Below, in pieces: positions 5,024 to 45,462 of a stretch of DNA of 64,000 nucleotides (within the stretch, counting starts at the first letter, position 1; each line of letters starts with the position of its first letter). Position numbers and translations under genes: made by a program. The notes under the pieces were generated by a model. That model searched no databases and had not been told where the DNA came from. It saw only the letters and a list, made by a program, of their open reading frames with translations. The DNA comes from Psychromonas sp. CNPT3. Its GTDB lineage: Bacteria > Pseudomonadota > Gammaproteobacteria > Enterobacterales > Psychromonadaceae. The DNA lies in contig NC_020802.1 in the NCBI RefSeq assembly GCF_000153405.2, forward strand, positions 1,445,883 through 1,509,882. The letters run 5' to 3'.

Positions 5024-5175
5024 ATACCAAAGGAATTTTAAGTTATCATGTATTGCGCAGGAAAAATTAACACTAGCAATGCATGAGTTGTAGGAGAGTG
5101 TTGTTCTCACTTCAAAACTCACAACGCAGGGTGGGATAATTTCAACAAGCAAGACGGGTAACCTTTTTAGTTTAT
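5024..5175 (+). repeat. Dispersed miniature element, copy A
   Basis: Begins ATACCAAAGGAA, continues through CATGTATTGCGCAGG and CACTTCAAAACTCACAACGC, and runs to ACCTTTTTAGTT; the right inverted end has decayed (TTTATATTTTCC instead of TTCCTTTGGTAT). It shares most of its length with copies D-G. It lies between the SDR gene and the amidohydrolase gene and fills much of that 368-base gap. Confidence 0.85.
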
Positions 5176-6697: not shown

Positions 6698-6767
6698 ATA
6701 CCAGAGGAATTCATTAAGTGATCATTTTAACAAGTAAGACGGATCTCTTTTTTAGTTCCTTTGGTCT
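6698..6767 (+). repeat. Dispersed miniature element, copy B (internally deleted)
   Basis: Both inverted ends are kept (ATACCAGAGGAATT and TAGTTCCTTTGGTCT) but about 90 bp of the centre is gone, leaving the AACAAGTAAGACGG segment next to the left end. It lies just upstream of the amidohydrolase start. The rest of the 6681-7041 gap shows nothing else. Confidence 0.75.
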
Positions 6768-19495: not shown

Positions 19496-20009
19496 AACGA
19501 GCAGAATGACAAATTTGTCTTATTCGCCATTGTTCTTATTGCTTGATCCTATCTTAACTACGTTTAGGTTTTCATTAGATAATGCAAAGGCTGACTATAA
19601 CTATATAACATAATGAAATTTTTATTATGTTTCAAATTAAAGGAAAGTAATGATTAAACATCAGGCTCATAACCAAATACTAAATACTAAGTGCGAAGCG
19701 CTCTAGCACTGATCTTATCTCATCGATTCTTGTAAATAGCCCTTTTTCCCCTTTGAAAACGGCATTAATGAAGAGAGCCCTTGTGTGAGTTTTGAAGTGA
19801 GAACAACTATCTCCTACCACTCATGCATTGCTAGTGTTAATTTTTCTTGCGCAATACATGAAAACTTAATTAATTCCTTTGGTATAAGAAACCTCTATAT
19901 GCACGATGTTTCATTATTTTGTTATAAGTAATAAAGTAATGTATTTTTACTTATACTCTTTTTTACTCTACTTTAATGTGTATGTTAAACACACAATAAA
20001 GGATTTTAA
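19496..20009. other. Gap between the array and ggt
   Basis: 514 bases without a gene. It holds half a miniature element (19783-19885) and the AT-rich upstream region of the plus-strand ggt gene. No remnant of a cassette gene was recognised. Confidence 0.6.
19783..19885 (-). repeat. Dispersed miniature element, copy C (half)
   Basis: Starts inside the element at GTGAGTTTTGAAGTGAGAAC and runs through GCTAGTGTTAATTTTTCTTGCGCAATACATG to the intact end TTAATTCCTTTGGTAT. The other half and end are missing. Confidence 0.8.
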
Positions 20010-39283: not shown

Positions 39284-39457
39284 ATACCAAAGGAACTAAA
39301 AAGGTTACCCGTCTTGCTTGTTGAAATTATCCCACCCTGCGTTGTGAGTTTTGAAGTGAGAACAACACTCTCCTACAACACTCTCCTACAACTCTCGCCT
39401 TGCTAGTGTTAATTTTTCCTGCGCAATACATGAAAACTTAATTAATTCCTTTGGTAT
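39284..39457 (-). repeat. Dispersed miniature element, copy D
   Basis: Complete in the opposite orientation: ATACCAAAGGAACTA at the left end, TTAATTCCTTTGGTAT at the right. It has a small internal duplication (ACACTCTCCTACA twice), making it 174 bp. It lies between the brnQ terminator and purC, so it may affect purC leader RNA. Confidence 0.95.
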
Positions 39458-40777: not shown

Positions 40778-41902
40778 TTATAATTTTTTACTTTGAACTT
40801 CATTTAATAATAATACTTGTCGTACTTTGTCTGTAATACTCAAATATATTTCAGTCACTAATGCATCTTTTAATGGTTTTTTATTTTCATCTAACCAAAT
40901 GAGAGCACTACTGTCCGCGGTCGCTTCTCCGAGCTGAATATTATACTGAGCATTTTTTAATTCAAACGGATGTAAATTATTTTCTGCCCAATAATCATCA
41001 CTCGGCGCACTGTATTTTAATAACATCGAGCCTAAGTTTTTATCACTCTTAATAATTTCAAAATTAAGTAAGGTCAATAATGATGGAAGCTCTTGCCACG
41101 TTTTTTCAAAACTTTCACTCACTAGCCAAGCCATTTGATGATTTTCATCAAAGCCAAGTTTAATCGGTAAAGGTTGCGAGCCTATATTTTGTAATGCGTG
41201 TTTTTCTTTTTGCTGATATGAAAAAAGTAACAAATCATTAATGAGTCGCGTTTCTATATTTTGTTTGTTTTTTTCGGTGAGTTTAAATTCTAAAAGCTCA
41301 CTGTCATTTTTTTCTGAGTAACTCAGTAACCTAACCGTTAGGTTTACACGGTGTGATTGTTGCTCTGCACTGACTTTAATAGAAAAAGAAGAGGCTTTAT
41401 TAATTGTATTTTTATTTAAAAAATTACCAAAACTTATTTCTTCTTTAATCTCGACGGGTTCAATCGTGTCACCGTTATTTTTGGCAAGTGTATAGGTTGC
41501 ATTTTTAGAGATTAAAAAATCATTCAGCAGCGTCGAAACTTTTGACGTTAACTCTTGTTGTGATTGAAAATCATTAAACCAAATACGCGTACCTTGCGAA
41601 TGATCTTTATCTTCGATGATCCCATCCATAATTTTAATTAATTGTGTGGGTGGGCGAATATCAACCGCGTCAGCGCGTAAACCATTATCTTTTTGATATT
41701 GGCTTAACTTAGGGATCACAAACAGATCGCGACTCTCATCTTGAGTATATCCTGTCGTAATATATTTAGTGTTGAGCGTAGATTCTTGATAATTAAAAGG
41801 ACCATTCGCTTGCATACGTGTATCAAAACGCGCACAGCCAGTCATTGAAATCATGACCGCTATACTGAGTGTGATATGACTTTTTTTAAATTGTTTTATC
41901 AT
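40778..41902 (-). CDS. bamC: Outer-membrane assembly lipoprotein BamC
   Basis: 374 residues, lipoprotein signal ending MISMTGC (lipid Cys at 23). The N-terminal unstructured part (NYQESTLNTKYITTGYTQDE, DLFVIPKLSQYQKDNGLRAD) is the segment that binds BamD; two helix-grip domains follow. It serves the BAM complex that folds beta-barrels. The start codon overlaps the dapA stop codon (ATGA), the conserved dapA-bamC (nlpB) arrangement. Confidence 0.92.
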   Translation of the reverse strand: MIKQFKKSHITLSIAVMISMTGCARFDTRMQANGPFNYQESTLNTKYITTGYTQDESRDLFVIPKLSQYQKDNGLRADAVDIRPPTQLIKIMDGIIEDKDHSQGTRIWFNDFQSQQELTSKVSTLLNDFLISKNATYTLAKNNGDTIEPVEIKEEISFGNFLNKNTINKASSFSIKVSAEQQSHRVNLTVRLLSYSEKNDSELLEFKLTEKNKQNIETRLINDLLLFSYQQKEKHALQNIGSQPLPIKLGFDENHQMAWLVSESFEKTWQELPSLLTLLNFEIIKSDKNLGSMLLKYSAPSDDYWAENNLHPFELKNAQYNIQLGEATADSSALIWLDENKKPLKDALVTEIYLSITDKVRQVLLLNEVQSKKL

Positions 41903-43442: not shown

Positions 43443-43603
43443 ATAGCAAAGGAATTAATGAAGTTTTCATGTATTGCGCAGAGAAAATTAACACTAGCAA
43501 GGCGAGAGTTGTAGGAGATAGTTGTTCTCACTTCAAAACTCACAACGCAGGTAGGGATAATTTCAACAAGCAAGATGGGTAACCTTTTTAATTCCTTTGG
43601 TAT
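43443..43603 (+). repeat. Dispersed miniature element, copy E
   Basis: Complete, 161 bp: ATAGCAAAGGAATTAATGAAG to TAATTCCTTTGGTAT. It is directly followed, after TA, by copy F in the same direction. Confidence 0.93.
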
Positions 43604-43605
43604 TA

Positions 43606-43766
43606 ATACCAAAGGAATTAATGAAGTTTTCATGTATTGCGCAGGAAAAATTAACACTAGCAAGGCGAGAGTTGTAGGAGAGTGTTGTTATCACTTCAAA
43701 ACTCACAACGCAGGGTGGGATAATTTCAACAAGCAAGACGGGTAACCTTTTTAGTTCCTTTGGTAT
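43606..43766 (+). repeat. Dispersed miniature element, copy F
   Basis: Complete, 161 bp, ATACCAAAGGAATTAATG to TAGTTCCTTTGGTAT. It differs from copy E at about a dozen positions (for example GCAGGAAAAATT against GCAGAGAAAATT), so it is not a fresh duplication. E and F are separated only by TA, which fits a TA target. Confidence 0.95.
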
Positions 43767-43915
43767 TAACGAGCGTTTAGTGCGACGTCTAATACAAAAT
43801 AAGCAAGGCAAGTGGGCTATCTGTTAGCTCATTTCTTATATTTAAGCGCTTCTTCTTGTTAGATCCAGAGGGGCCTGTATAATTTGGTTTTATTTATTAT
43901 TATTATTAGGCAAAC

Positions 43916-44560
43916 ATGGCTCTTTTTTCTGAAGAAATGTACAAATTATTGGACCTCGCATTATCCGAACTTAACGCGTCTCATGAAAGCGGTCGCACCC
44001 CACAGAATGATCTCAATGAAGCTCATTACTTGGGCGCGTGGGTAACCACTGCAATGAAGAAAAAGCGTTTTGATTCTATTGTTTTAAGCTCGCTTAAAAA
44101 TTGGCAAAGTAAAGCGCGTAGTTTAGGACGCAATGCAGGCCTTAAAGATCAATTTATTTACTTAGAGCGTTGTTATAGCCAGATCTTAGACTCAGATAAA
44201 AAGATACAAGCAGTGACGCGTGACCAGTTTGAAGCTTTTTATAAGACATTAAGTGCTGCACAATGGATGGTGACAACCGATACGGTTGTTGTCGATAAAA
44301 TGAAATGTCATAGTTCAGGTGATTCATCACTTGTTGCTTGTAAAGCACAAATGGATACGCATTTTAATGAAAAAGGTGACTTAATTAAGCCGATCTCTTT
44401 TTATATTCGAGGCGATGTTCAAGAGGCAGTTAAACTGGCCTTTGCTGCAAATGTATTATTACATAAGAAAACGGATCATAAATCTAGAGTAAAATACCAT
44501 GGTGAATACGTGGTTTACGTGCACAATGATGGTGAGTTTTTACCTGAATTCCCTTTATAA
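43916..44560 (+). CDS. Hypothetical soluble protein
   Basis: 214 residues without a signal or membrane helix; not recognised with certainty. The N-terminal half is helical (MYKLLDLALSELNASH, YLGAWVTTAMKKKRFDS, LSSLKNWQSKARSLGRNAGLK), the second half alternates strands and helices and ends YHGEYVVYVHNDGEFLPEFPL. The start has ATTAGGCAAAC upstream. Flanked by miniature elements on both sides. Confidence 0.65.
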   Translation: MALFSEEMYKLLDLALSELNASHESGRTPQNDLNEAHYLGAWVTTAMKKKRFDSIVLSSLKNWQSKARSLGRNAGLKDQFIYLERCYSQILDSDKKIQAVTRDQFEAFYKTLSAAQWMVTTDTVVVDKMKCHSSGDSSLVACKAQMDTHFNEKGDLIKPISFYIRGDVQEAVKLAFAANVLLHKKTDHKSRVKYHGEYVVYVHNDGEFLPEFPL

Positions 44561-44568
44561 ATACAATT

Positions 44569-44617
44569 AAGTGCGATTTAAAACGGATTGTTTTTAATCC
44601 TTTTTATCACACTTTTT
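44569..44617 (+). terminator. Possible terminator after the 43916-44560 gene
   Basis: Imperfect stem AAGTGCGATT / ATCACACTT with an inner GGATT/AATCC stem and a TTTTTA tail, directly downstream of the stop codon. Confidence 0.5.
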
Positions 44618-44636
44618 ATTAAGCACTTTTAACTTA

Positions 44637-44797
44637 ATACCAAAGGAATTAATTAAGTTTTCATGTATTGCGCAGGAAAAATTAACGCTAGCAAGGCGTG
44701 AGTTGTAGGAGATAGTTGTTCTCACTTCAAAACTCACAACGCAGGTAGGGATAATTTCAACAAGCAAGACGGGTAACCTTTTTAGTTCCTTTGGTAT
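44637..44797 (+). repeat. Dispersed miniature element, copy G
   Basis: Complete, 161 bp, ATACCAAAGGAATTAATTAAG to TAGTTCCTTTGGTAT. Its final T is the first base (on the plus strand) of the trmK stop codon, so the element has inserted precisely at the end of that gene, probably creating or keeping TAA. Confidence 0.95.
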
Positions 44798-45462
44798 TAG
44801 AGTGCTTGATAAGCCTTAATTATCTTTTCGACCTCTGCTCCCTTATTTTTTAACATGCGTTGATAATGTGCAATAGTTTGTTGCAAATAAAGCTGATGCA
44901 TGGGTAAGTCCCCCTCCCACATCATTGATCCCACATTCACAATCGGCAGCTCTGCGCGTGATGACACGTGTAAGATCTCGTAATAACGTCCCTGCTCAAA
45001 AATTAATAATTCGTTAATTAATTTTAATTTATGTTTGATCAACGTCTCTCTGACTAAAAAATTATGATGCACAGGACAAATTAAAAATTCAATATTAAAC
45101 TGTGCATTTAAGGGTAATAATGCCTCTAAAAAGGTACTTAATAACTGCCCTCCAACCCCCGCTATAATAATTAAATGCGTCTCTTTTAGGCTGGACTGTT
45201 GGTGATTTTTTAAGGGTAATTGACTCACATCGAGGCAATGCACTTGCCAGTCACTTACGCTACCCTGATAATAACGTTGCAGTTTTTTTTCTAATTTTTG
45301 CATTAAATTTTGGTTAATATCAACAAAGTGAACATGTTGGGCTTTATCTTTGCCGAGTAGCTTAAACCCCAGTTGTCCATGATCGCAGCAACAATCCCAA
45401 ATATGCGTATAAGGCTGCTTTACTTGCTCAAAAATGCTTTGTAATCTTTTACTCAATTTCAT
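44797..45462 (-). CDS. trmK: tRNA (adenine-22-N1)-methyltransferase family protein
   Basis: 221 residues, a Rossmann methyltransferase: WDCCCDHGQLGFKLL (motif I), VHFVDIN, IIIAGVGGQLLSTFLE and LICPVHHNFLVRETL, matching TrmK/YqfN. In Bacillus it methylates N1 of A22 in tRNA. Here it follows tex with an ATGA overlap. A miniature element abuts its stop codon. Confidence 0.9.
   Translation of the reverse strand: MKLSKRLQSIFEQVKQPYTHIWDCCCDHGQLGFKLLGKDKAQHVHFVDINQNLMQKLEKKLQRYYQGSVSDWQVHCLDVSQLPLKNHQQSSLKETHLIIIAGVGGQLLSTFLEALLPLNAQFNIEFLICPVHHNFLVRETLIKHKLKLINELLIFEQGRYYEILHVSSRAELPIVNVGSMMWEGDLPMHQLYLQQTIAHYQRMLKNKGAEVEKIIKAYQAL

Follow-up and report, generated by a model that had tools for sequence, protein, structure and literature searches.

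A Psychromonas MITE family with IS630-type ends that probably carries a selected hairpin as cargo

Described MITEs of the IS630 group are short, contain no gene, have inverted ends that match those of an IS630 element, lie in many copies in intergenic DNA and are flanked by a target duplication. For IS630 elements this duplication is usually quoted as the dinucleotide TA. We analysed a family of short repeats in a window of 64,000 nucleotides from the genome of the marine bacterium Psychromonas sp. CNPT3 (NC_020802.1, positions 1,445,883 to 1,509,882). The family resembles IS630 MITEs in all of these general features, but it differs in two respects: (i) the duplication is not the TA dinucleotide, because both the MITE and the matching IS are flanked by a 3-bp TNA; and (ii) the MITE contains a structured core that is absent from the IS.

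Three further kinds of system invite comparison. REPINs are inverted pairs of REP hairpins moved by RAYT transposases, in a system characterized by the REP tetranucleotide, a RAYT gene and no target duplication. Our family recalls them in some other genera (loci L374, L378, L383, L390, and L395), where two cores lie inverted about 20-30 nt apart as a double hairpin. However, its units are 84 nt, its inverted ends are long, and it has target duplications, which speak against a REPIN. The structured RNA families of Rfam 15 have covarying hairpins with fixed internal loops, as does our core, but no family reached its gathering score in the window, and a search of 11 further loci at permissive settings returned nothing credible.

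Finally, ERIC, Correia/NEMIS, and YPAL are, like our MITE, imperfect palindromes of similar size that lie in intergenic DNA and can fold as RNA in mRNAs, and ERIC in Yersinia influences transcript levels (PMC10969869, PMC2267715). Prokaryotic MITEs were reviewed in 2024 (PMC10969869), and stem-loop repeats have been surveyed (PMC2267715); both papers treat ERIC, Correia, YPAL, and others, and their accessible portions contain no family with the ends described here. The repeats are likewise absent from the accessible portion of the P. ingrahamii genome paper (PMC2405808). In the openly licensed literature, searched also by the letters of ends and core, we found no account of them, and the letter matches were unrelated primers or similar. 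ERIC and our MITE have only the letters AAGGC ... AACGCAG around the ERIC centre in common; in E. coli ERIC loci (L349-L351), AAGGC and AACGCAG stand on either side of the central hairpin, as they do in the core. We rejected homology with ERIC because our two covariance models (R1 and R2, described below) scored no higher than 7.7 and 7.5 bits, without a credible match to the ERIC core, when run unfiltered on three E. coli ERIC loci (two of which represent one site). The shared letters, which thus have no covariance-model support, may serve as a lead only.

Copies of the repeat and their target duplication

The MITE unit is 159 bp, TACCAAAGGAA...TTCCTTTGGTA, read from TACC to GGTA. It is well below 500 bp and has no transposase gene inside. 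A preliminary description of the window had reported at least seven copies of a 161-bp unit, in both orientations, complete, half, or internally deleted, and all intergenic. Apart from the unit length, this description held: all seven copies are present between 5025 and 44796, and all lie between ORFs (Table 1, with coordinates taken as TACC...GGTA). It had also placed only TA between copies E and F, where we find TTAA, that is, the duplicated TTA of E plus one A.

Table 1. Copies of the MITE and their hairpin cores, in coordinates of the window
Feature	Position	Strand	Description
Copy A	5025..5172	+	Left end and core intact, right terminal ~10 bp gone; TTA at left flank
Core of copy A	5062..5145	+	Covariance match, 61.1 bits
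Copy B	6699..6766	+	68-bp derivative with internal deletion; TTA on both sides
Copy D	19784..19884	-	Half element, consensus positions 1-101; TAA at intact end
Copy C	39285..39456	-	172 bp, 13-bp internal duplication near apical loop; TAA on both sides
Core of copy C	39321..39417	-	Covariance match, 60.9 bits
Copy E	43444..43602	+	Complete, 159 bp; TTA on both sides
Core of copy E	43483..43566	+	Covariance match, 78.9 bits
Copy F	43607..43765	+	Complete, 159 bp; TTAA on both sides (TTA plus extra A at left)
Core of copy F	43646..43729	+	Covariance match, 67.4 bits
Copy G	44638..44796	+	Complete, 159 bp; TTA plus A at left; TTA at right, flush with the copy, is the stop codon (TAA) of methyltransferase gene 44797-45462 on the minus strand
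Core of copy G	44677..44760	+	Covariance match, 81.6 bits

The family extends far beyond the window. The own genome of the window is a single contig of 3.05 Mb, and the end pattern TACCAAAGGAAYTA, allowing at most one mismatch, has 181 matches in it versus 4 for the reversed control pattern, which corresponds to approximately 90 MITE copies genome-wide. We examined 78 distinct BLAST places, of which 67 are full-length copies; median identity to the consensus is 95.6%. In BLAST against one full copy, E-values were at most 4e-64 for full copies and copy A, 5e-37 for half copy D, and 2e-10 for deleted copy B. Length variants are shorter (68, 86, and 146 bp) or longer (172 bp). There are three separate 86-bp copies, each flanked by its own TTA duplication, so short derivatives have moved too. 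In a relative, genome G006, we observed element versions of 221-304 bp (L093, L094, L095, and L098), in which the apical hairpin region contains an additional repeated block.

The target duplication of the MITE is a 3-bp TNA, mostly TTA or TAA, just outside TACC...GGTA. The first 30 full copies are flanked by TAA/TAA in 13 cases and by TTA/TTA in 12 (25 of 30 exact); of the remaining five, three agree with TTA if one added A is allowed, and two are misfits. Over all 67 full-length copies, read in element orientation, 54 have an exact 3-bp duplication (34 TTA, 19 TAA, and 1 TGA). Of the other 13, three have TTA with an added A, one has TTT with an added T, and nine are misfits, so that 10 of the 67 have no fitting duplication and count against the rule. 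Similar figures come from Vibrionaceae and Psychromonas, where, among the 80 loci of a pattern scan, 64 of the 70 copies with both ends paired have an exact duplication (39 TTA, 21 TAA, 3 TCA, and 1 TAG; 6 misfits), a count that leans towards duplications because the end-picking script gave a bonus to ends that have one. The left and right flanking bases vary together, as a duplication would and a fixed terminal base would not. The target is therefore not the TA of the preliminary description.

Empty sites agree with this unit. A copy in Vibrio pelagius has the occupied flanks CTTA|element|TTAAGC, and its natural empty site, CTCTTAA with a single TTA, is present in three of three related plasmids (from V. 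fortis, Vibrio sp. THAF190c, and V. pelagius WXL662). A second Vibrio site had no informative relative for the comparison. For the window copies, the nearest orthologue of a neighbouring gene is only 63% identical; the empty sites come from the Vibrio MITE and from plasmid copies of the IS (see below). Empty sites with a single TA had been expected; they do exist, for the IS and for a Vibrio family member, but with one TNA and not TA.

For nine of the 67 full-length copies, the insertion point coincides exactly with the TAA that ends a neighbouring open frame of 80 codons or more, for example at 44797-44799 in the window. The 3-bp duplication restores the stop, so insertion at a TAA stop codon is harmless. 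The genes around 30 copies are in tandem (15), convergent (8), or divergent (7) orientation; this absence of bias gives no sign of a fixed cis role.

We also looked for carriers of the family. A search of plasmids and phages did not find the element in the form present in the window. Its Vibrio form is present on four replicons from Vibrio/Photobacterium, 16 kb to 1.7 Mb in size, and was not found in phages, and the core pattern was not found in viral contigs. We rejected the idea of a gene that travels with the core, as none of the clusters formed by 1,013 ORFs from the loci of the pattern scan and of the R1 search (see below) was represented at more than 10 loci.

An IS630-group element with matching ends

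In genome G006, a pattern scan revealed two TACCAAAAGAATTT ends that face each other 1,106 bp apart. The element that they delimit encloses an HTH ORF and a DDE_3 ORF, which are the two halves of an IS630-family transposase. Its ends are identical across 25 bases, TACCAAAAGAATTTAATTTGTGATC, and the MITE ends in the same genome are TACCAAAAGAATTAATGAAGTGATCA. IS and MITE ends have up to 21 of 26 bases in common, and none of 5,000 random 26-mers from the window reaches 17. IS630-family elements of approximately 1.1 kb with the ends TACCAA...GTGATC, as in the MITE, occur in related Psychromonas genomes and on plasmids. The proposal of an IS630-type MITE in the preliminary description is thus upheld by the matching ends, the HTH and DDE_3 element, and the common TNA target. 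The full-length IS that it anticipated does exist in related genomes and plasmids, but it is absent from the own genome: with the DDE half as query, relatives turned up in 21 of 24 Psychromonas genomes and none in the own genome, where a DDE_3 family search was also empty. Hence there is no IS630 transposase in that genome today.

The target of the IS can be read from its copies. Among 30 IS630 loci of Psychromonas, seven (L409, L411, L412, L414, L423, L430, and L432) possess a pair of TACCAA-type ends that agree in 18 or more of 26 bases. Only two of these have an exact duplication (TCA and TAA); four others have T-N-A on both sides with one base different, and one lies at a contig end. The plasmid copies are clearer. 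We collected seven, from Enterobacter, Citrobacter, Aeromonas, Vibrio, and Photobacterium hosts; six have TACCAATC...TGATCTAATT ends, that is, ends of the TACCAATC...GTGATCTAATT type, and these six are flanked by the exact duplications TAA, TGA, TCA, TCA, TAA, and TGA, which indicates that they have transposed. The ends of the seventh were not found. The empty site reconstructed for one of these six, with a single TGA, matches 128 plasmid records; 119 of these reach at least 99% identity, and the eight records among the matches listed are 100% identical over all 300 nt in one piece. Together, the exact TNA on the plasmid copies and the empty site indicate that this branch of IS630 duplicates TNA, like the MITE.

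We note two further features of these elements. The transposases at L439-L445 appear in two frames and are probably made by programmed frameshifting, given that the length of the annotated CDS, 1,027 nt, is not divisible by three. On plasmid pN260-3, one IS630 copy lies between resistance genes.

Searches for a driver in distant genomes were less productive. End pairs there proved to be MITEs and chance sites only, and we rejected them as a lead. In one genome (G162, L354:1452-1938), an ORF that we recognized by eye as RAYT-like adjoins one end of a distant family.

A conserved and covarying hairpin core

The core forms a hairpin of 84 nt, in which the internal loop CAAGGC / AACGCAG is nearly invariant. 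On either strand, single MITE copies have a better fold than shuffled sequence (z of -4.3 and -4.6). The preliminary description had suggested folding the repeat as RNA and overlooked the conserved core, which covaries strongly. A consensus fold of 31 full elements has changes on both sides in 16 of 32 pairs, and the covariance model built from it (R1) found relatives in 19 of 274 gammaproteobacterial genomes. A model of the core (R2), applied phylum-wide, has matches at E <= 0.001 in 88 of 398 genomes and 43 of 212 genera, in a sample in which one family of small genomes is over-represented. Thus, the core is common to Vibrionaceae, other Gammaproteobacteria, and further Pseudomonadota, often with different ends. 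The window also has a weak core match at 41512-41610 on the minus strand (17.2 bits, E 0.29), which is probably due to chance.

An exact scan for the core pattern across approximately 85,000 genomes returned at least 120 stretches; the 80 matches listed are from Psychromonas, Vibrio, Aliivibrio, Photobacterium, Endozoicomonas, and one Peptococcaceae MAG. The last, from goat caecum, has the core in a contig binned as Firmicutes (L214:5940-6115), which could reflect horizontal spread or a binning error. In distant copies, the middle of the element is preserved but the ends are in many cases different, e.g., GGAACCTCTGATTAATTCTGG or GGGCACCTCTATTAATT; about half of those whose flanks we read by eye show 4-bp duplications such as TTAA or TTTA. 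Ends and duplication therefore differ between lineages while the core stays. At L388 and L392, in two different genomes, the sequence directly next to a distant family member is identical; some insertions may thus be old and have been retained at their site.

We measured covariation in two sets of cores. In the training set of 38 cores, drawn from the groups above, 24 of 29 hairpin pairs have changes on both sides and 87.3% of cells are paired; the covariation score is 0.553, compared with 0.069-0.130 when the pairing is slid, and none of 500 shuffles reaches 0.553. The second set comprises 38 further cores from 29 loci that are absent from the R2 model, although four of the loci come from two genomes that contributed to it. 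Here, 28 of 29 pairs have changes on both sides (one pair is invariant), 92.4% of cells are paired, and the score is 0.765 versus at most 0.160 when slid; these values lean towards the proposed structure, since the set was aligned by the first set's model. The loop letters CAAGGC and AACGCAG are nearly fixed. By covariation, as is asked of a functional RNA, the hairpin thus exceeds both the slid and the shuffled background.

The pairs that are not Watson-Crick are informative about strand. G-U cells outnumber A-C cells by 83 to 21 in the training set and by 72 to 17 in the second set. The G-U share of the two is 0.80 and 0.81, respectively, versus shuffled expectations of 0.64 and 0.59, and lies above all 500 shuffles in both sets. 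Because G-U exceeds A-C, the fold of the strand reading CAAGGC...AACGCAG is the one that matters. This preference points to RNA or to one DNA strand and is not proof of RNA.

The core is not part of the IS. A search with R2 over 14 IS630 loci, representing 13 distinct places, found no core inside an element; the sole match, in L412, belongs to a MITE that lies outside the IS, at a distance of about 230 bp. Transposition by this IS group thus does not need the core, which makes the core a cargo of the MITE.

Readings of the element and their consequences

We consider it likely, on the whole, that the repeats are a MITE family moved by IS630 and carrying a selected hairpin as cargo. We have little doubt about two parts of this reading, namely that the repeats are a MITE of the IS630 group and that the core fold is under selection. 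We infer that the core works as a single-stranded nucleic acid, most likely RNA; on sequence comparison, we lean towards RNA rather than single-stranded DNA as its working form. The transposase of the IS described above appears to have moved the MITEs, and movement appears to have stopped in the own genome; since that genome has no candidate transposase, the link between IS630 and the MITE rests on ends and target.

The hairpin could instead be kept as folded single-stranded DNA, for example on the lagging strand, in transposition or repair linked to replication. Elements of other groups do move as folded single strands, and such a role would suit a fold that spans the whole element and favours one strand. 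We find this rather unlikely, given that IS630 elements lack the core at all 14 loci although plasmid copies have transposed, and that a duplicated target and inverted ends fit double-strand DDE transposition. It is distinctly improbable that the core is unselected and that the covariation reflects upkeep of an inverted repeat by gene conversion or hairpin repair. The homogeneity of copies within one genome (median 95.6% to the consensus) would fit such concerted change, but CAAGGC and AACGCAG stay the same from genus to genus, in contrast to the stems, where all pair types occur, and repair would maintain neither specific mismatched loops nor the excess of G-U over A-C.

We give still less credence to movement by an IS5-like or other transposase, with a coincidental likeness of the ends to IS630. 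Some IS5-family subgroups duplicate a 3-bp TNA, and distant families with the same core have GGAAGC/GGAACC ends and, read by eye, often 4-bp duplications. However, both the ends and the TNA duplication are found on IS630 copies, and we rejected IS4/IS5-type drivers (DDE_Tnp_1 and DDE_Tnp_1_2) after a survey in and near the genus (PF01609, present in 13 genomes, 30 loci examined; PF13586, present in 24 genomes, 28 loci examined; and 20 further regions), in which none of the transposase loci examined had paired TACCAA-type ends at 15 or more of 20 matching bases. The idea of conserved RNA genes multiplied by ordinary duplication accounts for the covarying structure, but as a complete explanation it is refuted by exact 3-bp duplications, empty sites, both orientations, different flanks, and inverted ends shared with an IS. 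The preliminary description had set conserved RNA genes against a mobile element; the core is indeed conserved and covarying, but this does not exclude a MITE, and there is evidence for both.

In the mechanism that we propose for the IS630 MITE with its hairpin cargo, an IS630-group transposase, now lost from the own genome, would have recognized the TACCAA ends and, acting in trans, would have excised the MITE and pasted it into TNA sites. The core would then remain in intergenic DNA, partly transcribed together with neighbouring genes, and selection would keep it as a hairpin. The core RNA may act in cis on mRNAs or as a small RNA and, like the RNA of other hairpin MITEs, it may be a binding partner or cleavage substrate of a host RNA protein; such an action of RNA and protein could make insertions tolerable or useful. 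We also put forward, tentatively, the broader possibility that an undescribed structured RNA with the CAAGGC/AACGCAG loop has spread through Pseudomonadota as MITE cargo, with the RNA outlasting the ends and successive transposases acting as its vehicles.

Bacterial MITEs are mostly viewed as empty shells of IS elements, whereas here the inside of the shell is what is best conserved between bacteria, and its covariation is of a kind rarely present without function. The core persists, while its presumed mover is gone from the genome and the ends vary by lineage. The TNA duplication also revises the rule on targets in one branch of IS630; a copy from this branch lies beside resistance genes on a plasmid. 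If the core works as RNA, a good fraction of the sampled Pseudomonadota would contain a structured, multi-copy RNA for which we found no counterpart in the reference library, and its many copies would amount to a natural experiment on effects on neighbouring genes.
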